Shown here: piece after piece, positions 753 to 29,614 of the stretch
How positions within the stretch are numbered: position 1 is the stretch's first letter
How the letters are laid out: every line of letters begins with the position of its first letter
Source: Scytonema sp. RU_4_4
GTDB lineage: Bacteria > Cyanobacteriota > Cyanobacteriia > Cyanobacteriales > Nostocaceae
Length of the DNA stretch: 32,938 nucleotides
Direction: 5' to 3'
NCBI GenBank assembly: GCA_012031965.1
Contig: JAAUSC010000062.1
Span: 1-32,938 of the forward strand
Program-made: the position numbers and the translations under genes
Notes under the pieces: generated by a model
Seen by the model: the letters and a program-made list of their open reading frames with translations, nothing else
What the model was told of the DNA's origin: nothing
Databases searched by the model: none

Positions 753-3700
753 TTACTTGCCGGGATTTGCGGCGGTTGGTGGTACATTGTCACAGAGATG
801 GCGATCTGCGCTCCGCGCAGCAGCGAAGCTATCGCTTTCACTGACATTGGGGTTATTTTGCAAATAATCACGCAGGCGATCGCAACCTTTGGCAAGCAGT
901 TCATCTAATTTACCGATTTCCCACAACTTAGCAGTGCCGTCTTCGCCAATGGTAGCTAGCATACTACTGTCGGGACTCAAAATGACGTTTTTGATTTTGC
1001 GGTCAGGGTCTTTAAATTCTCCCATCTTGGTTCCATCCAAATACCATAAGCTGACAGTACCGTCTTCTTTGACAAAGGCGGCTAAGCTACCATCATTGTT
1101 AGAACTGATACCGGAAAATTCACCTGCTCCAAGATTTTCGGTAATAGTCTGTAGTTGTTTTCCCGATTTTACATCCAACAATACGATACTTTTGTAGGCT
1201 CTACTTAGTTGCTGTACGCCAGCTAACAGGATTTGGTCGTCTGATTTCCAAATCACATTGGTAATGAAAATAGTTTCTTCATAAGGAAACGACTTACCAT
1301 TTGGCTTGCCTGATGATACATCCAACAAAAAAATTGTTTTGTTGTTATTGTCATTTCCAGTAACTGCTATTTGCTTACTATTAGGACTAAAATTTAGGTT
1401 ACTGTCAGAGTCATATTTTCCAGTAAATTCTCTATATTTCTGACTCGACAAATCCAATATGCCTACAGTTCCTTCGTTGTTTAGGGTTGCTAATTGTTTC
1501 CCATCAGGGCTAAAACGCAGGCTATTGAAGACAGGAAACTGACTGTTAAATTGCTTCACTGACTTGCCGGATAAATCTAACAAGCGGATAGTTCCATCTA
1601 CTGCTTGAGTTGCTATCAGCTTACCATCTTGGCTAAACGTGAGACTGTTAACTTTGTTTGGTAGTTCTTGCAGTTGATTTAGCTGTTGTTGTTCTAAAGT
1701 CCAAAGACGGAGAGTACCATCAGCACTGGCAGTAGCAAGGACTTTACCATCCGAGCGAAAATTAAAACTAGCTATTTGACCTCTATGTCCTTTGAGTTCA
1801 ATTGTGTTGGCATCTGAGTCCCACAAGCGGATTGTACCGTCATTGAATCCTGTAGCAGCATGCTGGTTACCATCTCGGCTAAAATTAATATCGATGTTTT
1901 GACCAGGCAATTCTGTCAAGATGTTTTGCTGCCAATACCACAAAGAACTTTCAGCACCTGGACCAGTTCTACCGCCTCCGTAGATAATTGCTATTTTATC
2001 CCCATTGGAACTCAGGATGACATTATCAACCCCGCCTGGAAATGGACCATCGGTTTTACCTAACTCTTGAAAAGAGGAGTTAAACACGCCAACGGTTTTA
2101 TCATCTGGAGTCTTTGTCACTAATAATAACTGACCATTGCTGTCGAAACCAGCAGTGATAATTTTGTTTTGAGGGACTTGGAATTCCTGGTATTGGTTGC
2201 TAGAAAAACTCCACAAACGGGCAATACCATCATCTGCTACGCTAACAAGTTGAGTACCATCTTGGTTAAAAATGAGGCTTGTAATCGCACATGAATCGGA
2301 ACTCGGGATGTCGTTTGTATCTTGGCATTGATGTCTTTGTAAGACTGTTGCCTGCTGTTGATTTTGCCAATTCCACAACAGAAGACTACCCTTGTTTGTC
2401 CCAATAGCAAGTTGACTACCATCCGGACTAAAAATGACTTGTGTAACTGAGTATTGATTTCCTGGTAACTCGGCTAACTTTTTGGCTTGTTTGTCCCATA
2501 CTCGGACAGTGCCATCATTTTCAGTACTAACTATCAGTAGCTTACCATTATCGTTCCAAAAAATACTTTGAACCCCACTGGGAAATCCTTCTTGCCTGTC
2601 ATATTCTCTAACTGTATAAACTGCCTTTCGCAAGGTTCTGATGACTTGAATTTGTTCCTCTTCTTTTGGTGGAGGTACTTTCAACAGCCACCGATTCTTA
2701 AGGGATTCTCCAGCCGATAAACTATTGCTCAAAGCATCTAAAATCAGTTGATTTGAACGCAAGTTGCCATCTGCAGATTCGGTATTAGCCAGCATTGCGT
2801 TTATGGTTGATAGCCTAAGATTGTTTAATGCCCAAAGAGTTAACCCCAACAAACCCAGTATGACTACTGTCACAATCACCCTGAATCTATAAGTATTTTT
2901 ACTTCTTTGTAGGACGCTTCGCCGAACAAAGGTATCCTCAATCCAGTTCAGCCAGCTATTCTTAGAATCAAGAACTTGATTTAATTGCTCAATCCGAGGG
3001 TCATCATCCCATAAGTAAGCTATTGATTTTATATTTGAAGCCGTAGAAATATTTATTTGTTCTCGTTTTTTGCGCTGCAAATTGCGTCGCCAATTTTGTA
3101 TTTTTCCAATTGCAAAATATTCTACTTGTCCCCATGTCTCCACTAAAGAATGAGGTTGCTTTTCCTGAGCTTTTATATTGTTCCACTCTTGTGCCGCAGG
3201 TGTTAGCCGCCGTTGTAAAATTAGATTTTCCTCATCTTCTTTTTTCCACTTCAGCATCTTATCCCAACCCTGTACCAAAGCATCATGGGCTGGTTCCACA
3301 TAAGGTTCACCTTGGGAATTAGAACCTTCAACAATTAAACGAGCTTCAGAAAAACGTTTGATGACTGTTTGTACGCGATCGCTTTCTTGTTGATCGGGAT
3401 ATACCAGTTCCGATTTCGGCACTTGTCGCCGTGCTAACTCCCCACCTTGCAATGAAATCATTCGCAGCATCACCCGACGTACTGTATCTTTATAAGCAAC
3501 ATCTTCTGCAACTAACCGCTCGTATTCTTGGTTAGCACGCTTGGTCAAAGAACCAACAACTCTTCCCAATTCTTCATAATCTTTCTTTGTGAGAGCGCGG
3601 TTGTTTCTTTGTCGGTCTTCTATATACTTTAAATACAACTCACTGAGAGTGAAAGAAAGCAAAGGTAAAGCACCCGGCATTTGTACGACTTCGTTAATTA

Positions 3701-5303
3701 GTTCGTCTACCAAGCTGGGAGGCTCGAAGTACACAACTTTCTCTGATGCGGGTTTCTCAATCGCCTCCCGCAATTCATCTTGAGTCATTGGTGGCACAAC
3801 AAACCGAGCATCATTCCAAAAGTCTTTGAGTACAGAATTTTGAAACTGCGCTTCAAAGTCGAGTCGCAGGGTAATAACTACATCGATATGTTTGGAAAAT
3901 TTGGCAATTGCATTTTTAATTAATTTCTGAAACTGTTCTCGTTCCTCGTCACTCTTACACAAAGTTATCAATTCTTCAAACTGGTCAATTGGCAGTAATA
4001 GTTGAGTTTTGGGATAAGCTTTACACCTATTTTCAATAATACTTGCTAAAGCATATTCATCTTTTGCCAGTTCTTCAGCAGTGATTGCAGTTGCAATTGG
4101 TGAACACACTTGTGCTAGTGCTTGCAAGGGACTTTCTCCTGGTCGCATTGGTTGTAAAATCTGAAACTGATGCTCCTGGGAATGACGCAAGTCCGGTAAC
4201 AAACCAGCTTTCATTAAACTAGATTTTCCTGTTCCAGAAGCACCCAATACCACTGTCAAAGCTTGTTGTTCAGAAACAACATGCTGATAAAGCTGTTTGA
4301 TGAGATTTTCTCTGCCAAAAAACAAGTTGCTATCTTTTTCGTCGTAAGATTGCAATCCTCGGTAGGGATTATTTTCTGGAATGAGTGGAGGAGCATCTTC
4401 TAATTTGTCTCGATCAAACTCAGGTAATAAGAAGATGAATTCCCCTTTATCATGTTTTCTGAGCGGACACAAACCTGGAGTTTGTCGCTTATAGTGATTT
4501 TCTGTGAGAATTTCCACGCGATCGCGCAGATATGAGTAAAGCTCGGTTGCGGTGATGATACCATCTTTATTCAAGTCCGCACCTTCATCAGCTCCCCCGC
4601 GTAAGGCATCAAAAAGAGCTTTGGCAAAGGGAGAGTGAATTTCGTTCCCGTCGATGACTTTCCCTCGTTGTCCTAAAGCATCCAAAGCTTTCTGGTCGTC
4701 AGCCGCCGAAGTAATGACTTGCCAAGCTGCATCAGTAATGAAGCGGTCGTAGCGTTCTTTATAGACTGTGACTTTGGGCACAATGTCTCGCTTGAGGCTT
4801 GCCCAACGGAAAGCTCCTGCAAAGCAGCAATCTAGAATTGCTAACATATGCCGACACGGAAGTGCGTTCAAAGCATCATGTAACTCTTGCATCGGCAAGT
4901 AGGTGCTTTTATCATCAGTGGCATCTTGAGGGATGAGGTAACCTACTGGTCCATCTTCATTATCCATAGCATTGTCAGCTATTCCATGTCCAGCAAAGTA
5001 AAAGAGAAGGCGATCATCGTTGTTCACCGTCACTGTTTCTTTGTCCAGAAATATTTGTCCTTTTTTAAAGTCTTCAATTAATTGCTTAAGCTTTTTGAGG
5101 GTAACGCGTTGATTCAATAGCAACTGGACTTCATACTTATTTTGCGCTTGATATTGCGGTTTGAGCTTTTGATGTTGCTCTTGAATAATTTGAGCGAGTT
5201 TGAGAGCATCTGGAACTGCTGTTTCTAGCGCTGGAATGCCATTTTCATAATTATTAATACCGAGAATAATAGCGAAACTACGGTTAAAATTATGTTTGGA
5301 CAT
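753..5303 (-). CDS. Caspase-like / STAND NTPase / WD40 repeat protein
   Basis: This is a 1516-residue multidomain protein. Residues 5-290 form a C14 caspase-like domain with the dyad His106 (YFAGHG) and Cys160 (LDCCFAG). Inside its C-terminal part, residues 243-254 (DLNKDGIITATE) are a textbook EF-hand loop. Residues 310-690 form a STAND-type NTPase: NPYRGLQSY entry motif, Walker A GASGTGKSS at 354-362, Walker B-like LLLPIDQFEE near 435-444, and EPAHDALVQGW at the end. A membrane segment lies at about 808-826. Roughly residues 900-1485 are WD40 repeats with many FSPDGxxLA and DGTxRLW units. This architecture is common in filamentous cyanobacteria and resembles regulated-death or signalling proteases. 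Substrate and trigger are unknown. Near the C-terminus, SESD and RHLCD are separated by nine extra residues that come from an inserted repeat (see findings). The start ATG follows an AT-rich leader without a clear ribosome site. Confidence 0.92.
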   Translation of the reverse strand: MSKHNFNRSFAIILGINNYENGIPALETAVPDALKLAQIIQEQHQKLKPQYQAQNKYEVQLLLNQRVTLKKLKQLIEDFKKGQIFLDKETVTVNNDDRLLFYFAGHGIADNAMDNEDGPVGYLIPQDATDDKSTYLPMQELHDALNALPCRHMLAILDCCFAGAFRWASLKRDIVPKVTVYKERYDRFITDAAWQVITSAADDQKALDALGQRGKVIDGNEIHSPFAKALFDALRGGADEGADLNKDGIITATELYSYLRDRVEILTENHYKRQTPGLCPLRKHDKGEFIFLLPEFDRDKLEDAPPLIPENNPYRGLQSYDEKDSNLFFGRENLIKQLYQHVVSEQQALTVVLGASGTGKSSLMKAGLLPDLRHSQEHQFQILQPMRPGESPLQALAQVCSPIATAITAEELAKDEYALASIIENRCKAYPKTQLLLPIDQFEELITLCKSDEEREQFQKLIKNAIAKFSKHIDVVITLRLDFEAQFQNSVLKDFWNDARFVVPPMTQDELREAIEKPASEKVVYFEPPSLVDELINEVVQMPGALPLLSFTLSELYLKYIEDRQRNNRALTKKDYEELGRVVGSLTKRANQEYERLVAEDVAYKDTVRRVMLRMISLQGGELARRQVPKSELVYPDQQESDRVQTVIKRFSEARLIVEGSNSQGEPYVEPAHDALVQGWDKMLKWKKEDEENLILQRRLTPAAQEWNNIKAQEKQPHSLVETWGQVEYFAIGKIQNWRRNLQRKKREQINISTASNIKSIAYLWDDDPRIEQLNQVLDSKNSWLNWIEDTFVRRSVLQRSKNTYRFRVIVTVVILGLLGLTLWALNNLRLSTINAMLANTESADGNLRSNQLILDALSNSLSAGESLKNRWLLKVPPPKEEEQIQVIRTLRKAVYTVREYDRQEGFPSGVQSIFWNDNGKLLIVSTENDGTVRVWDKQAKKLAELPGNQYSVTQVIFSPDGSQLAIGTNKGSLLLWNWQNQQQATVLQRHQCQDTNDIPSSDSCAITSLIFNQDGTQLVSVADDGIARLWSFSSNQYQEFQVPQNKIITAGFDSNGQLLLVTKTPDDKTVGVFNSSFQELGKTDGPFPGGVDNVILSSNGDKIAIIYGGGRTGPGAESSLWYWQQNILTELPGQNIDINFSRDGNQHAATGFNDGTIRLWDSDANTIELKGHRGQIASFNFRSDGKVLATASADGTLRLWTLEQQQLNQLQELPNKVNSLTFSQDGKLIATQAVDGTIRLLDLSGKSVKQFNSQFPVFNSLRFSPDGKQLATLNNEGTVGILDLSSQKYREFTGKYDSDSNLNFSPNSKQIAVTGNDNNNKTIFLLDVSSGKPNGKSFPYEETIFITNVIWKSDDQILLAGVQQLSRAYKSIVLLDVKSGKQLQTITENLGAGEFSGISSNNDGSLAAFVKEDGTVSLWYLDGTKMGEFKDPDRKIKNVILSPDSSMLATIGEDGTAKLWEIGKLDELLAKGCDRLRDYLQNNPNVSESDSFAAARSADRHLCDNVPPTAANPGK
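801..835. repeat. Small dispersed palindromic repeat inside a HIP1 site
   Basis: The sequence reads GCG-ATC, then 24 bases (807-830) containing the hairpin TGCGC-TCC-GCGCA, then ATC-GC. Removing the 24 bases and one copy of ATC restores the HIP1 octamer GCGATCGC. It looks like one of the very small mobile repeats described in Nostoc-type genomes, inserted with a 3-base duplication. It lies in frame within the WD40-caspase gene and adds nine codons. Confidence 0.7.
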
Positions 5304-24359: not shown

Positions 24360-24508
24360 GGCAGAACTCAATTAACTGACTAAGGTAGAAGCTACACTTA
24401 ATGATATAAAAAGCTGGCTAAATTAACTAGTGAGGACTATGATTTTTTCCTCTATCAAATGCTTCACTATAGCAATCCGCGCATCATTTGTGAAAAATTG
24501 TGAAAATT

Positions 24509-24541
24509 AGAAACCCGGTTTCTAGCAGAAACCGGGTTTCT
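24509..24541. repeat. Perfect 15-base inverted repeat
   Basis: AGAAACCCGGTTTCT (24509-24523) is followed by AGC and then AGAAACCGGGTTTCT (24527-24541), a perfect stem with a 3-base loop. It is of a type dispersed in many cyanobacterial genomes. It lies between divergent genes (VOC leftward, Uma2 rightward), so a terminator role is unlikely. Each arm is itself nearly palindromic. Confidence 0.85.
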
Positions 24542-24592
24542 GGACTACAGCAATTTTTACAACTCATATAGGACTGCTATATTAACGAGTAG

Positions 24593-24664
24593 CACAATCT
24601 TATCAAACTAGGATTTTTTAACGAAGATGATCATATTGAATTCATTCAAGGAGAAATCATCGAA
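24593..24664 (+). pseudogene. Decayed duplicate of the Uma2 N-terminal coding region
   Basis: Read in the frame of the following gene, 24605-24664 encodes KLGFFNEDDHIEFIQGEIIE. This closely matches residues LGFFTEDDRLELINGEIIQ of the intact Uma2 protein downstream. A TAG at 24590-24592 ends the frame upstream, and no start codon precedes the match. It is the remains of an earlier copy whose methionine codon (usually in EIIQM) now serves as the start of the present gene. AAGGAG within it (24648-24653) may supply the ribosome site. Confidence 0.75.
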
Positions 24665-25243
24665 ATGGCAACCCTAAAAAGCTTTTCTATTGAAGAATAT
24701 CACCGATTAGCAGACTTGGGATTTTTCACTGAAGATGACCGATTAGAACTTATTAATGGAGAAATTATCCAAATGTCGCCGAAAGGGACACGTCACACAA
24801 CTTGTTGCAGTAATTTATTGGAGGAACTTGCAGTACTGGTAGCAGGTAGAGCAAAGGTACGATGCCAAGACCCAATTAGCTTACCATCCAAGAGTGAACC
24901 AGAGCCAGATTTTACTATTGTTAAAAAACAAGCAGATAATTACCTATCTAGTCATCCTAGACCATCAGATATTTTGCTTATCATTGAAATTGCTGACTCT
25001 AGTCTTCAGTATGACCAAGAAGAGAAATTACCTCTCTATGCAGCAGCAGGAATTTCTGATTATTGGATATTTAATTTAGTTGATAATCATTTAGAAGCTT
25101 ATAGTGAACCATTACAAGAAGTACAAAGCAAATTTGCTTATAGAGTCAAACGTATTATGTTGGCAAATGAAACAGTGACTTTACCTTGTTTTCCTGATGT
25201 ATCACTCGATTTATCTAAGATTTTTCCTAATTTTATTCAGTGA
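24665..25243 (+). CDS. Uma2 family endonuclease-like protein
   Basis: This 192-residue protein belongs to the Uma2 (DUF820) group, a PD-(D/E)XK nuclease-like family present in dozens of copies in filamentous cyanobacteria. Motifs are IEEYHRLADLGFFTEDDRLELINGE at the N-terminus (in two parts), GTRHTTCCSNLLEEL, EPDFTIV with Asp82, DILLIIEIADSS with Glu108, and the basic EEKLPLYAAAGISDYWI with Lys121. All core nuclease residues are present. The cellular role of Uma2 proteins is unresolved. Its start region overlaps a duplicated gene remnant. It stands alone, with no partner gene. Confidence 0.9.
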   Translation: MATLKSFSIEEYHRLADLGFFTEDDRLELINGEIIQMSPKGTRHTTCCSNLLEELAVLVAGRAKVRCQDPISLPSKSEPEPDFTIVKKQADNYLSSHPRPSDILLIIEIADSSLQYDQEEKLPLYAAAGISDYWIFNLVDNHLEAYSEPLQEVQSKFAYRVKRIMLANETVTLPCFPDVSLDLSKIFPNFIQ

Positions 25244-25564
25244 ATGAAACATTGACAGCAACACTCTATTCTAGAGCATGCCAGTAAAAAGTACAAAAGC
25301 GATTTATAAAAAGAAACCTTGACAAAAGCTTAGATTAAAGTCAGAAAGTAAGATAAGGTCAAAAAAAGTATACACAGTAAATATATATATTTATCTACAG
25401 AAAAGTATTATAACTTCAGAGAGACCATACCATTAAGTATTTCTGTCTTTAGAGCGGTTAACTTATTATTTGTAATCGTTAAATTTGCGTATGAAGACAA
25501 TCTACACCAAAAGAGCGTTAAACCTTTTTGATTAAGGAACTTTTTGATTAAGGAAGTGATTGAT
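25244..25564. other. 321-base gap upstream of the repeat-protein genes
   Basis: It is AT-rich, with a stretch of alternating TA near 25380-25395. The last 40 bases hold a direct duplication TTTTTGATTAAGGAA (25525-25539 and 25541-25555), whose second copy supplies the AAGGAAG ribosome site for the gene at 25565. No RNA gene was seen. A promoter is expected here but no clear -35/-10 pair was found. Confidence 0.5.
25525..25555. repeat. Tandem duplication containing the ribosome site
   Basis: TTTTTGATTAAGGAA occurs twice, separated by one base. The second copy lies nine bases before the ATG at 25565 and contains the likely ribosome site; the first gives a spare copy 16 bases further upstream. 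Confidence 0.85.
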
Positions 25565-26590
25565 ATGGTTGAGAGCAGGCAGGCTTTGGATAGGCAGGGT
25601 GTAAATACTACTAACAGCATAACTACAAGTCAACCTTATGCTGGTACAGTAGACACAAACATAGGTGCAGGGGTATCTAGAACCGATGATGCTAACCGCA
25701 TAAGCATCAATCAACCCAGCACGGGTTCAGTAGGCACAAACATAAGTACTGGGGTATCTACAGACGCTAATGCTTCTTCAGTTAGGAATGGAGCTCAATC
25801 CGGTGCTCAAGCAGCAAACGGAGGCTCCAATCCTATGTTAACTAGAGCACTGATAGGCGGACTCATTGGTGGTACGTTAGGTTCAGTAGCTGCCGCTTTT
25901 GCAGGTAAAAGAATAGCTCAGGGCTTTCAGGTAGCTGCAAAAGGTTTAGGAGAAGCTGGAAAGACTATAGGTCAAGGTCTTAGCCAAACAGGAAAAGGTG
26001 TTGGGGAAGCGGTAAAGAGTATCGCTGAAGGCACTACCCAAGCTGTTGTAGGTGGTGCAGTGGACACGGCAAAGGGTGTTGCTGAGGGAACTAGGCAAGC
26101 TGTAGCAGGTACAGTGGACGCAGTACAGAATACAGCACAGGGTGTTAACCAAGCTGTACAAGCTGCGGCGAACACAGTTAAGGACACAGCAAACAGTGTC
26201 GCTGAGGGAACTAAGCAAGTTGCACATAGTGCAGCAGATACAGTCAAGGATACAGCACAGGGTGTCAACCAAACTGTACAAGGTGCAGCAGATACAGTCA
26301 AAGATACAGCACAGGGTGTCAACCAAACTGTACAAGGTGCAGCACAGAATGTTAAGCCCTCTGAAAATCAGGGCTATCAATATCAAGAGCGGACGGTTAC
26401 AGACAATCAACAAGTCAACAAGGATGAAGTTGAGATGGATCGTACATCGATGGTCTACATTTCAACTCCAGGGGAGACAGAGCCGCTTGTTGTTGATCCA
26501 ATTGTGCCTGTAGATGCTGGAATGTCAGTAGATTCTGGTGAAACAGATCCGCTTGAGGAAGAAATTACTCGGATGAACGATTACAAATAG
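25565..26590 (+). CDS. Glycine-zipper protein with amphipathic 18-residue repeats (paralogue 1)
   Basis: The ATG at 25565 is preferred to a TTG at 25544, as AAGGAAG lies eight bases before it. The 341-residue product has four parts. Residues 1-90 are polar with two near-copies of a 16-residue unit (QPYAGTVDTNIGAGVS, QPSTGSVGTNISTGVS). Residues 95-116 are a glycine-zipper membrane segment (ALIGGLIGGTLGSVAAAFAG). Residues 117-264 are an uninterrupted, proline-free amphipathic helix rich in Ala, Gly, Thr, Val and Gln, with the period-18 unit TVKDTAQGVNQTVQGAAD. Residues 265-341 are acidic. The helix resembles group 3 LEA proteins or perilipin-4. A role in membrane or desiccation protection is inference. 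Two paralogues follow directly. Confidence 0.82.
   Translation: MVESRQALDRQGVNTTNSITTSQPYAGTVDTNIGAGVSRTDDANRISINQPSTGSVGTNISTGVSTDANASSVRNGAQSGAQAANGGSNPMLTRALIGGLIGGTLGSVAAAFAGKRIAQGFQVAAKGLGEAGKTIGQGLSQTGKGVGEAVKSIAEGTTQAVVGGAVDTAKGVAEGTRQAVAGTVDAVQNTAQGVNQAVQAAANTVKDTANSVAEGTKQVAHSAADTVKDTAQGVNQTVQGAADTVKDTAQGVNQTVQGAAQNVKPSENQGYQYQERTVTDNQQVNKDEVEMDRTSMVYISTPGETEPLVVDPIVPVDAGMSVDSGETDPLEEEITRMNDYK
26229..26348 (+). repeat. 54-base tandem repeat in coding sequence
   Basis: Units start at 26229, 26283 and 26337 (the third partial). Units 1 and 2 differ at a single base (GGATAC versus AGATAC). Each unit codes for 18 residues. More diverged copies lie upstream between about 26100 and 26228. 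The near identity points to recent unit duplication inside the gene. Confidence 0.9.
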
Positions 26591-26656
26591 GCATTTAACA
26601 TTTTGAGGGTCGGCAGTAAAACTTAGACACTGTAACAACGGTGCCCTTTTCAATAA

Positions 26657-26678
26657 AGGTAGTCCAATAGGACTACCT
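26657..26678. terminator. Hairpin AGGTAGTCC–AATA–GGACTACCT
   Basis: A perfect 9-base stem with a 4-base loop lies 66 bases after the stop of paralogue 1. No T-run follows, so it may be an RNA stabiliser or processing site rather than a strict terminator. Confidence 0.5.
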
Positions 26679-26692
26679 GCAAACATAAAAAG

Positions 26693-26717
26693 CTCGTAGT
26701 TATACGAGATAGTTTTT
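26693..26717 (+). terminator. Short stem CTCGTA–GTTA–TACGAG with T-run
   Basis: A 6-base stem is followed, after ATAG, by TTTTT at 26713-26717. It could end the paralogue 1 transcript, but the stem is weak. Confidence 0.4.
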
Positions 26718-26821
26718 CCGACTTAGACCCTGTTAAATCAAGAAAAAAGGTTTAAGTGTGGATTTTTTGTCGTGTAACCAAATTGCAATTAACCAATTTT
26801 GGCACAAAGGAAACGATTGTT

Positions 26822-27418
26822 ATGAATGGGAACCAACAGCTTTTGGATCAGCCTAATGGCAATATTAATGTAGCTACAGAGCAACCTGACGCTCATGAAG
26901 TCAGTCAAGATACGAATAATGGATTATCTAAAATAGCGCTTGGAGCACTTATTGGTGCTACCTTGGGCGCAATAGCTGGGGCTTTAACTATTAAAGGTAC
27001 AGCCGAAAGGGTTAACCAAACTGTAAAAAGTGTAGGGGACAAGGTAAAGGATGCAACCCAAAATTTTAACCAAACTGTACAAGGTGTAGGGGGCGCAATA
27101 AATACAATAGCTGAGGGTGTTAACGACACTGTAAAAGATGTAGGGGAGAGCGTTAAGAGTACAGCTTTGGGCATTAACGACAATGTAAACAATACAGTGA
27201 GTGCTGTTAAGACGACAGCGGTGGGCATTAACGACACGGTAAACAATACAATGGACATCGTCAAGGGTGCTACGCAAGGAGTTACCCATTCTGTCACAAA
27301 TACAATGGACGTAGCCAAAAGTACACTTGAAGATCCCAAGCCGTCTGGTGGTCAGAGCGTCAACATACCTAATGACCAGACAACCTACATTTTAGTCCCA
27401 GTAGAAAACAAAAAGTGA
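26822..27418 (+). CDS. Glycine-zipper protein with amphipathic repeats (paralogue 2)
   Basis: The ATG at 26822 is preferred over an earlier in-frame start at 26756, because AAAGGAAA lies about nine bases before it and the upstream part has no family likeness. The 198-residue product has a polar head (1-35), a glycine-zipper segment at 38-57 (IALGALIGATLGAIAGALTI), and a long amphipathic stretch at about 58-170. That stretch has units such as GVNDTVKDVGESVKSTALGI and GINDTVNNTMDIVKGATQGV. A short tail ends ILVPVENKK. KGTAERVNQTV after the zipper is nearly the same as KGTAQRVNRTV in paralogue 3, which proves relationship. The repeat is of the same style as in paralogue 1 but with less regular period. 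Likely a membrane-anchored, repeat-helix stress protein; function unknown. Confidence 0.78.
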   Translation: MNGNQQLLDQPNGNINVATEQPDAHEVSQDTNNGLSKIALGALIGATLGAIAGALTIKGTAERVNQTVKSVGDKVKDATQNFNQTVQGVGGAINTIAEGVNDTVKDVGESVKSTALGINDNVNNTVSAVKTTAVGINDTVNNTMDIVKGATQGVTHSVTNTMDVAKSTLEDPKPSGGQSVNIPNDQTTYILVPVENKK

Positions 27419-27425
27419 AGCGTAG

Positions 27426-27442
27426 GGTGGGCAATCCCCACC
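27426..27442. terminator. Hairpin GGTGGG–CAATC–CCCACC
   Basis: A 6-base GC-rich stem with a 5-base loop lies seven bases after the stop of paralogue 2, and is followed by TTATTGATTTC. It is both terminator-like and similar to the GGTGGGCAATGCCCACC-type dispersed repeat of cyanobacteria. Confidence 0.55.
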
Positions 27443-27546
27443 TTATTGATTTCAAGTCTTACCTAGGATTGTGTGGTTAGTCATAGATAACGAGCTGCTT
27501 GAGCTAGCGGTTATGCCACTTTGGTGTATTTAAGGAGACAGTTAGT

Positions 27547-29010
27547 ATGAGTAATAACAAGCAGCCTTTTGATCAGCATGACGAAAATACTGACCGCATG
27601 ATGGAGCAACGCAAGGCTCCTGAAGCAGGTGTAGGTATAGGTGGTGGGTTAGTTGGAGCAGCCATTGGTGGTTTACTCGGTCGTAGAGTTGGAGGAGTTT
27701 CTGGTGCTGTAATCGGCGCAGTAGCTGGCGCTTTGGCTGGAAAAGGTACAGCGCAGCGTGTTAACCGTACGGTAGATAGTTTAGTGGACGCAGCCAAGAG
27801 CGTAGCTGAGACTGTAAACCATAGTGTAAATGGTGTAGGAAATGCCGTCAAAGATACGGTTGAGGAAGCCAAGACATCCGTAGTCGGTGCGGTACACGCG
27901 GTCAAAGATACAGTTGAAGAGGTCAAGCCATCGGTAGTTGGTACAGCCAAGAATTTTGCTGAGACTGTTAATCACAGTATAAATGATGTTGGGATAGCAT
28001 TAAAAAATAGAGTTAATGAGGTCAAGGAATCTGTAATAGGCATAGAAGAAATCGCCAAAGATACAAATAAGGAAGTTAAGCCATCTGGTACTTACAACAA
28101 TGAGATAGACCAAGAGCCTCTGGTGACGGAGCAACTGTCGAAGTCAAGCAAGGAGCATCCTCTTAATGATAATGTGATACCAGATCTGTCTAATTCCCCA
28201 CAATACGAAAACCTCACCTCGCCTGCGGTACCCCTTCCCGCACCACCACCTCCTATTTCCTTAGCGCCGCCAGAGAGAAGAGATTTTTTGATGCAGGAGT
28301 TGTGGGTAAAGTCTCAAGAGAATAGCAAGTTGTCAGATGAACCTGATATTAGGGAAAAGGCTGCTCAAGGATTAAATTATTCACAACAGCCTAAGAGTTT
28401 TCAAGAAATAAACAGAAAAGACATTGAGTCTAACAATATTCAACAGAAAGAAAAAAAATTTCAGCACCGTAAACAAGAAATTACTCAACAACTTAACCAA
28501 GCAAGCATTGAACTACAGACCAGAAAAATCCAAAACATTATTGGAATTCTTGTCGGAGTATCTATCATAACTTTGATGAGTGTAACCTTGGGATTGAGTC
28601 CAAAACAAAATCAATTAGTCATAAAATCCTCAGCCTCTGATCAAAATCTTTCTCCAGTACCGGAAACAATGACTGATGGTTGGATTTTTATAGGTAATGT
28701 CAACCATAAAGCTTCAGATTCAGCATTGATAGGAAAGTCTCTAACCAAAAGTTCACAGTCTACGGATTCACCTATTGTTCCATCTGTAGGGTCGATAGTA
28801 GCTGTCACTGTTGAACCAGGAGTAACGTTGAGGGACAATAGACCACAAGCATTAAACTTTAGTCATCAAGAACAAAAAGTTGTAGCGATTCTTAAGCCTC
28901 AAGAGAAGCTAAAAATTCTTAAATTAGAGTTTCTAAAATCTTCGAGTACCACTAAATCACCAATAAAAGTTTGGGCAAAAGTCCGTAGATGTGGTAACGC
29001 TTGCTTGTAA
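27547..29010 (+). CDS. Glycine-zipper/amphipathic-repeat protein with SH3-like C-terminal domain (paralogue 3)
   Basis: AAGGAGA nine bases before the ATG supports this start. The 487-residue product has residues 28-66 as two glycine-zipper runs (GIGGGLVGAAIGGLLG, GAVIGAVAGALAGKG), and residues 67-180 as an amphipathic repeat. The unit VNHSVNGVGNAVKDTVEEAK recurs 51 residues later as VNHSINDVGIALKNRVNEVK. Proline-rich PAVPLPAPPPPISLAPP is at 226-242, a charged, Gln-rich coiled part at 245-330, and a second membrane helix at 331-350. Residues 378-482 are an SH3-like strand-rich domain (GWIFIGNV, VGSIVAVTVEPGVTLRD, EKLKILKLEF, VWAKVRRC). It may tether the others to an envelope partner. Two membrane segments place the coil and the repeat on the same side. 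Confidence 0.8.
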   Translation: MSNNKQPFDQHDENTDRMMEQRKAPEAGVGIGGGLVGAAIGGLLGRRVGGVSGAVIGAVAGALAGKGTAQRVNRTVDSLVDAAKSVAETVNHSVNGVGNAVKDTVEEAKTSVVGAVHAVKDTVEEVKPSVVGTAKNFAETVNHSINDVGIALKNRVNEVKESVIGIEEIAKDTNKEVKPSGTYNNEIDQEPLVTEQLSKSSKEHPLNDNVIPDLSNSPQYENLTSPAVPLPAPPPPISLAPPERRDFLMQELWVKSQENSKLSDEPDIREKAAQGLNYSQQPKSFQEINRKDIESNNIQQKEKKFQHRKQEITQQLNQASIELQTRKIQNIIGILVGVSIITLMSVTLGLSPKQNQLVIKSSASDQNLSPVPETMTDGWIFIGNVNHKASDSALIGKSLTKSSQSTDSPIVPSVGSIVAVTVEPGVTLRDNRPQALNFSHQEQKVVAILKPQEKLKILKLEFLKSSSTTKSPIKVWAKVRRCGNACL

Positions 29011-29193
29011 TATGATGTATGTTTGATTATTCTTTAGATTTTCAGAATATAAACTTTAGACAACATCCTGAACTTTATCAGTCTCAAAAAACGATTTATA
29101 GACAAACTTAAATTCTCTTTTGATGAAATTTACTTATAATATCTATAAAAATTTATTATATAAGAGATAAACTAAAAGCAGTTCTCCATCTGT

Positions 29194-29278: not shown

Positions 29279-29614
29279 TTAGTAGATGGTACCTCGATAC
29301 TTACGTATCATTTCGACCTCGGAATCTTGAGGTTTAGAAAGAACTTGTTCACGGTTCTGACTGGAATTAAGATTTCCTTGTTCTTCATCAATGTGATTCA
29401 TTTTATACTCGTTTTGCTGTAAAAGTTTTTTCGTGGTCATGAGAGTAAAAATGAGTAGCAAAAGCAGTATCTGCCAAGGTGCTAAGACCAAACTTAGAAC
29501 TATGCAGACAACGGCAAATATCCCCACGAAGTATCCGATTTCATCGGTACATTTTTTGAAGATATAGCCACCAATTAAACCAGTAAAAAGTGGAATTAAA
29601 AAAAACAGAGCCAT
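29279..29614 (-). CDS. Small membrane protein, 111 residues
   Basis: This protein has three closely spaced hydrophobic stretches: about 2-18, 24-44 (YFVGIFAVVCIVLSLVLAPW) and 47-60. A charged tail follows from about 61. The tail ends MIRKYRGTIY, which is like the YRG motif of the short DUF4278 peptides of cyanobacteria; this likeness is weak. GAGGTGAG before the ATG is a good ribosome site. The gene converges with paralogue 3, the last of the repeat-protein genes. It may belong with that cluster, but nothing in the sequence proves it. No function is assigned. Confidence 0.7.
   Translation of the reverse strand: MALFFLIPLFTGLIGGYIFKKCTDEIGYFVGIFAVVCIVLSLVLAPWQILLLLLIFTLMTTKKLLQQNEYKMNHIDEEQGNLNSSQNREQVLSKPQDSEVEMIRKYRGTIY

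Follow-up and report, generated by a model that had tools for sequence, protein, structure and literature searches.

We analysed a contig of 32,938 nucleotides (JAAUSC010000062.1, hereafter the window) from the filamentous cyanobacterium Scytonema sp. RU_4_4 (assembly GCA_012031965.1), and within it a block of three neighbouring genes on the same strand, g1, g2 and g3 (Table 1). In the protein encoded by each, a glycine-zipper segment precedes an amphipathic repeat of 113-153 residues that is nearly free of proline (0.7-0.9%, that is one residue, in each measured helix region), as a first-pass annotation had described. The annotation had also held that the second and third genes share the motif KGTAxRVNxTV and arose by duplication. 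The motif was found as KGTAERVNQTV in g2 and KGTAQRVNRTV in g3, and at 36% identity (E = 3.3e-16) the two proteins are clearly paralogous. The g1 protein is a remoter paralogue (E = 5.7e-5 to g3), and neither a search with g3 nor a g2 profile search revealed a further paralogue in the same genome. The annotation had not mentioned the conserved C-terminal tails, of which g1 and g2 each have their own, or the transmembrane helix and separate C-terminal domain of g3.

Table 1. Features of the g1-g3 block and related elements. Positions refer to the window unless a locus is named; KD, mean Kyte-Doolittle hydropathy over a 19-residue window; best angle in degrees per residue.
Feature	Position	Strand	Description
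g1	25565..26590	+	341 aa from ATG 25565; low-complexity N-terminus, one glycine-zipper segment, 11/3-pitch amphipathic repeat, conserved tail (YISTP ... EEEI)
g1 glycine-zipper membrane segment	25835..25906	+	aa 91-114; KD 1.73 at aa 95-113; Gly columns invariant in the g1-family alignment
g1 amphipathic repeat region	25931..26389	+	aa 123-275; 54- and 120-nt tandem repeats; best angle 98.5
g2	26822..27418	+	198 aa from ATG 26822; glycine zipper, 18/5-pitch amphipathic repeat, conserved tail (QTxYILVPVE)
g2 glycine-zipper segment	26936..26992	+	aa 39-57; KD 1.92; G45, A46, G49 and A52 invariant across 19 rows
g2 amphipathic repeat	26990..27337	+	aa 57-172; best angle 100.0; moment 0.40 vs shuffle maximum 0.23
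g3	27547..29010	+	487 aa from ATG 27547; two-part glycine zipper, amphipathic repeat, Pro/Gln-rich linker, transmembrane helix, C-terminal beta-domain
g3 glycine zipper, two segments	27625..27744	+	aa 27-66; KD 1.61 (aa 27-45) and 1.42 (aa 48-66); Gly-zipper_Omp 22.5 vs cut-off 25 bits
g3 amphipathic repeat	27742..28080	+	aa 66-178; best angle 99.5
g3 transmembrane helix	28537..28593	+	aa 331-349; KD 2.33
g3 C-terminal beta-domain	28678..29007	+	aa 378-487; CxxxC pair at end; homologous to C-termini of TIR proteins and an ARC6-like-IMS protein
Conserved non-coding leader just 5' of g1	25414..25501	+	long invariant blocks; six same-group loci aligned
Conserved hairpin GGTAGTCC-AATA-GGACTACC in g1-g2 spacer	26658..26677	+	in 6/6 aligned loci; one A-C mismatch in UFV-L1
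TIR proteins with g3-type end domain	L062:3900-4991, L063:4290-5360, L028:874-1941, L033:859-1926		

At the DNA level, the tandem units listed for g1 are accompanied by 54-nt units in g2 and looser 54-nt copies in g3. The highest protein identities occurred at lags of 18, 40, 58, 11 and 7 residues in g1, 18, 36 and 54 in g2, and 51, 18 and 33 in g3. Of the 7-, 11- and 18-residue units reported earlier, the 18-residue one is therefore common to all three proteins, whereas the shorter two are clear in g1 alone. Each protein has a continuous stripe, and the hydrophobic moment summed along its entire repeat region (0.29, 0.40 and 0.36 for g1, g2 and g3) exceeded the best of 500 shuffles (0.18, 0.23 and 0.25, respectively).

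We then defined the pitch of each helix as the angle per residue that gives the greatest hydrophobic moment over the entire repeat. Ideal values are 98.18 degrees for an 11/3 helix, 100 for 18/5 and 102.86 for a heptad coiled coil. Homologues of g1 gave a median of 98.5 (38 of 39 at 98.0-98.75 and one at 100.25), which corresponds to 11/3, and those of g2 a median of 99.75 (29 of 33 at 99.75-100.0 and four at 99.0-99.5), which corresponds to 18/5; the median for g3 was 99.5, with all 20 homologues at 99.25-100.5. All 92 homologues (39 g1, 33 g2 and 20 g3) had a pitch z-score above 3 and fell between 98.0 and 100.5, although they are akin to each other and their values are non-independent trials. 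For a coiled-coil protein encoded next to many g1-g2 pairs, the identical code returned angles of 101.5-108 with a median of 104, and z > 3 in 7 of 13. The length of g1 ranges from 245 to 636 aa across homologues while the pitch gap between g1 and g2 persists. Length varies widely in g3 as well, and much less in g2, whose open reading frame (ORF) spans 169-273 aa and in 34 of 39 cases 181-223 aa.

The chemistry of the helices was compared with published values. The hydrophobic, aromatic and charged fractions are 0.375, 0.018 and 0.175 in the g1 family, 0.346, 0.008 and 0.229 in g2, and 0.395, 0.004 and 0.271 in g3, with mean moments in 33-residue windows of 0.32, 0.41 and 0.36. These compositions are near those printed for Plin4 (0.35, 0.002 and 0.15; moment 0.257) and Plin3 (0.37, 0.01 and 0.23; moment 0.35) in Table 1 of PMC5889406, which is cited here, like the other papers below, from excerpts; the moments are above that of Plin4, as far as the somewhat different averaging in that paper allows. 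The repeats of the window proteins have a grand average of hydropathy (GRAVY) of -0.29 to -0.39 and contain 16-28% charged residues. On the wheel of g2, the sector adjoining the centre of the apolar face is 72% Val, with Thr on one side and Ala, Gly and Val on the other; one flank carries Lys and Asn (Lys 37%), the opposite one Gly, Asn and Asp. Val, Thr, Ala and Gly make up the apolar face of the repeats, which is about 180 degrees wide; Leu and Ile are scarce in it. The charges are asymmetrically distributed in the window proteins (z 2.4-2.7; one-sided p 0.002-0.006 from 500 shuffles of charge sign among the charged sites), as they are (z > 2) in 25 of 33 g2 and 19 of 20 g3 homologues.

Whether the genes stay together was determined from the loci of relatives. 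Nine named loci with g2 were found: Scytonema tolypothrichoides, Nostocales cyanobacterium HT-58-2, Brasilonema bromeliae, Brasilonema UFV-L1, Scytonema NIES-4073, Tolypothrix campylonemoides, Scytonema hyalinum, Iningainema tapete and Scytonematopsis contorta. All nine loci contain g1 and g2, the g1 of B. bromeliae being split across two overlapping frames. A g3-like gene lies directly downstream in seven, short (265 aa) in HT-58-2; in Iningainema it lies close by on the opposite strand, and the Scytonematopsis stretch examined showed no such gene. In a near set of 79 genomes, which includes our own and from which the g2 profile was built in part, the profile matched 25 genomes with an E-value of at most 1e-8, and in 16 of these the match was strong (E < 1e-40). 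An ORF for g1 lies upstream in 15 of these 16, and the remaining genome (G035) has well-placed g1 profile matches only. Class-wide, the profile matched 28 of 388 genomes (own included), 21 of them with E < 1e-30; the 20 others among these 21, 18 of which lie outside the window's order, served as class-wide loci. A g1-like gene precedes g2 on the same strand in 20 of 20, overlapping it or lying at most 51 nt away in 16 and 190-534 nt away in the rest, so that the two genes probably form one operon in most of these loci. The zipper and the repeat are likewise retained together in relatives. These arrangements show that g1 and g2 are a conserved pair, newly recognized here, and predict their transcription as an operon.

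In a tree of 39 g2 rows, one branch (98/94) set apart the 21 rows belonging to the window's order and another (99/95) set apart family f45; f56 and f48 did not form single groups. Such a pattern points to largely vertical inheritance and numerous losses. The g2 profile was silent in two of seven same-genus genomes (G002 and G005; our own is among the seven), where window positions 24399-29009 have no counterpart in the fetched stretch and both flanks align. Loss is likelier than gain in these two genomes, because in other genera the block sits in the corresponding position, next to tex. The ratio of nonsynonymous to synonymous substitution rates (dN/dS, NG86) was 0.22-0.51 in all 10 comparisons, which indicates purifying selection; g1-g3 are thus not free-running low-complexity sequence.

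Downstream of the pair, the third place differs between groups. In 13 class-wide loci out of 20, all of them among the 18 outside the window's order, the next gene after g2, 43-557 nt away and in the same orientation, encodes a coiled-coil protein of 214-324 aa that has LENRL-type heptads and a conserved VVEETIMAVAKWL-like stretch. A profile built from these 13 loci matched 15 of 388 genomes at E <= 1e-6, namely the 13 and two weaker ones (2.6e-13 and 5.5e-8) whose genomes have no g2 match. Profile search did not find the coiled-coil partner in the genome of the window, and in the near set it gave weak matches in 4 of 79 genomes, at 3.6e-5 or worse. Strong copies of the coiled-coil gene accompany the g1-g2 pair, and the pair often occurs without it.

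The C-terminal domain of g3 recurs at the end of four proteins that match TIR_2 above the Pfam cut-off (Table 1), each with a hydrophobic helix (KD 2.1-2.5) before the end domain. The one from L063, the sole one of the four run against PADLOC, matched Thoeris ThsB (E = 4.3e-38). These four proteins possibly represent a membrane-spanning TIR architecture. If their TIR parts are cytoplasmic, the end domain of g3 is probably outside, and the CxxxC at its end would fit an oxidising compartment. The domain also occurs in an ARC6-like IMS protein (L031), where there is no hydrophobic helix above KD 1.5. A structure model of it has six strands at medium confidence (mean predicted local distance difference test, pLDDT, about 60); it matched no PDB structure at E <= 0.001, and a PDB sequence search with the domain gave no match. 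SH3_3 (PF08239) was weakly matched by three of the TIR homologues (E = 0.018, 0.046 and 0.13) and not by g3 itself.

No Pfam or NCBIfam model was above its cut-off for g1-g3 among the matches listed (E <= 1; for Pfam the best 25 of 28 for g2, 25 of 32 for the g2 repeat and 25 of 26 for the g3 repeat). Sub-threshold matches were to ApoLp-III, Apolipoprotein, CsmC, phasin, YtxH, ZorA and, in one homologue, Perilipin; they share an amphipathic or long-helix theme, and none of them establishes membership. The g1 repeat alone scored 22.8 bits against the chlorosome envelope protein CsmC (PF11098; cut-off 26.3), and all three repeats alone matched ApoLp-III (PF07464), in both cases below the curated cut-offs, so that a common helical pattern is as likely as kinship. 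Perilipin (PF03036) was not among the matches listed for the window proteins, and the g2 homologue of L114 reached 19.2 bits against a cut-off of 33. With YtxH and the Gly-zipper families (PF12732, PF13488, PF05433) the proteins share a zipper followed by a helix, again below every curated cut-off (23.3 vs 37.5 bits for g2 and YtxH PF12732). Other PDB sequence searches gave only weak matches, for example to designed helical proteins and talin.

The closest likeness is to perilipin 4 and alpha-synuclein, to whose lipid-binding helices the first-pass annotation had also pointed. Common to g1-g3 and these proteins, as described in the excerpts of PMC5889406 and PMC8064757, are a very long repeat helix, a Val/Thr-rich face nearly free of aromatic residues, low hydrophobicity and ordered polar residues. 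The long, weakly hydrophobic amphipathic helix of 11-mer pitch that marks perilipins is seen in g1, with its near-Plin4 composition, whereas g2 differs by its 18/5 pitch. Unlike their animal counterparts, g1-g3 are bacterial, have an added glycine-zipper segment and are slightly negative in net charge; the perilipin four-helix bundle was not recognised in them, and no sequence relation is demonstrated. A bacterial lipid-surface protein for comparison is MLDS of Rhodococcus lipid droplets, likened here by description only; the excerpt of PMC5504291 claims an apolipoprotein motif for it, together with a DNA-binding C-terminus with PAKKA motifs and putative homologues in actinobacteria. The annotation had matched the gene set to no characterised system, and our literature search, judged from titles and abstract starts among the matches listed, likewise turned up no described system or operon for it. 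The excerpt of PMC12923008, on Anabaena cyanoglobules, contains no mention of amphipathic, phasin, glycine zipper or apolipo, and nothing on this gene set was noticed in that of PMC7660261, on an alkane strain of Nostoc.

On the basis of these results, we slightly favour the view that the g1-g3 proteins are membrane-anchored and that their helices coat a membrane or lipid inclusion in the manner of a perilipin. It is supported by the stripe far above shuffles, the conserved pitch, the Plin4- and Plin3-like composition and the charge asymmetry, and further by the pair kept in 20 of 20 loci, the g2 tree grouping, dN/dS, the sub-threshold matches to lipid-surface helices and the position of the g3 end domain behind a helix in four TIR proteins. 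Coating of a membrane, the activity originally suggested, would be the likeliest one. The part in drying, salt or lipid stress that was suggested along with it is a conjecture. In such a coat, which would work like perilipin-4, g1 and g2 would be two subunits and g3 an accessory subunit. The glycine-zipper segment would anchor each protein in the membrane, or as a hairpin against it, and the long helix, probably unfolded or mobile in water, would settle on lipid through its weakly hydrophobic, full-length Val/Thr/Ala stripe. Lys on one flank and Asp or Glu on the other may let adjacent helices align laterally and so form a stabilising layer; a later Plin4 study (PMC8064757, from its excerpt) argued that helices pack laterally via polar residues. 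The variable-length g1 and the near-constant g2 probably act jointly. In strains of the Scytonema/Brasilonema type, g3 would connect the layer, by way of its transmembrane helix, with a domain across the membrane, and in many carriers outside the window's order the coiled-coil protein may take the third place.

Several observations weigh against a coat. Charge asymmetry is weak in the g1 family (z > 2 in 7 of 39 homologues and negative in 6 of 39), and the net charge of the window repeats is slightly negative (-2 to -3). Plin4 came off droplets once its charge had been reversed to negative, and raised hydrophobicity restored binding (PMC5889406, excerpt). A structure model of g2 had a mean pLDDT of 33 and is silent on the fold. 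No shared neighbour was recognised as pointing to lipid metabolism, by eye and without running the neighbours against family models. Finally, an 11/3 pitch fits right-handed helical bundles too, and weak matches to ZorA models exist.

The last point leads to the alternative that the repeats build a right-handed (hendecad) or untwisted multi-helix bundle, that is a membrane-anchored stalk with no lipid coat, which we regard as unlikely but deserving some weight. The tail of ZorA, from the Zorya system, is a membrane-anchored stalk of this type. Both the 11/3 and the 18/5 period suit right-handed or straight bundles, and the long helical region of ZorA, with its similar residue pattern, was matched in PADLOC models by g2 (best E = 7.7e-8, 112 residues) and g1 (best E = 1.7e-5), the NCBIfam ZorA model staying below cut-off. 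However, the g2 matches span model positions 230-501 only, MotA/ExbB/TolQ is absent among the Pfam matches listed for g1-g3, and the same regions weakly match many unrelated helical families. We also judged so wide an apolar face, with so few Leu and Ile, unusual for a packed core, and our literature search found no paper on the ZorA tail. A left-handed, filament-forming coiled coil, which long proline-poor helices and a weak SF-assemblin match of g2 might suggest, was rejected by the pitch test, all 92 homologues lying clear of the median of 104 for the neighbouring coiled-coil protein; we give it very little credence.

Group 3 late embryogenesis abundant (LEA) proteins, to which the repeats had also been likened, would make g1-g3 disordered, membrane-tethered drying protectants that fold on water loss. 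The 11-residue element of g1 and the weakly hydrophobic helices are in favour, as are several carriers in Scytonema, Brasilonema and Tolypothrix, which are subaerial genera. Proteins of this group are strongly hydrophilic, with charge-rich 11-mers, whereas g1-g3 are less hydrophilic, as their charged fraction and GRAVY show, and possess a membrane segment. No LEA model was among the Pfam matches listed, for whole proteins or repeats alone, and the entire block is missing at its place in 2 of 7 same-genus genomes. A genome-wide LEA_4 (PF02987) search was empty, its control being silent as well. We therefore rejected the LEA likeness for want of a listed model match and of hydrophilicity, leaving this reading a small chance; the anatomy, the duplication and the perilipin-4 likeness proposed with it stand. 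Granule proteins, either polyhydroxyalkanoate (PHA) phasins or GvpT-like gas-vesicle accessory proteins, are highly improbable. They were brought up by sub-threshold matches to phasin PF05597 (19.4 bits for the g3 repeat and 15.1 for whole g3, vs 28.8) and to GvpT/GvpP (17.5 vs 80 bits for g1). Phasins were rejected because two models found no PHA synthase in this genome (96.6% complete), PF07167 with a Caulobacter control above cut-off and TIGR01836 with the same control responding below it. A gas-vesicle role was rejected since its matches are sub-threshold only; genome searches with PF09712 and gas-vesicle PF00741 were empty, and their controls were silent as well.

The sequences around the genes showed further features. 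The leader and the g1-g2 spacer (Table 1) had no Rfam match at E <= 0.1, and a promoter and terminator scan found promoter-like sites no commoner than in shuffles. In S. tolypothrichoides (L065), an insertion of about 127 nt lies right after the conserved hairpin, and in HT-58-2 (L066) one of about 800 nt lies at the 3' end of g1. The 70 nt from the g3 stop codon (29010-29079) align to two same-genus genomes without g1-g3; by eye they are an apparent remnant of an ORF of about 178 aa (cluster 15) that occupies the place after g3 in seven related loci. Positions 29279-29614 (minus strand) encode a hydrophobic protein of 111 aa kept near tex in eight loci (cluster 9). Two divergent zipper proteins were seen elsewhere: a g1-like one in G035 (L061:4517-6031), with a different, acidic repeat in place of the amphipathic one, and one that carries GVQPTIEDA-type repeats and is encoded next to a g1-g2 pair, on the other strand (L048:3827-4939). 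The large protein encoded at 753-5303 (minus strand) of the window is presumably a caspase-like, NTPase and WD40 fusion.

To our knowledge, giant weakly hydrophobic lipid-coating helices have been described mainly from animals. Family boundaries are now given for g1-g3, which score above the cut-off of no model in the copies of Pfam and NCBIfam that we used. More speculatively, and with considerable doubt, the pair may represent a two-pitch cyanobacterial coat, in which zipper-anchored helices of 11/3 pitch and tunable length co-assemble laterally on lipid with those of 18/5 pitch and near-constant length, optionally tied by g3 across the membrane or to a coiled-coil scaffold. Such a coat would be to bacteria what perilipin and apolipoprotein coats are elsewhere. 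A bacterial pair that keeps two close pitches over deep divergence, while mainly one member changes its length, would provide a compact natural system in which to test the influence of pitch, length and flank charge on lipid coating.

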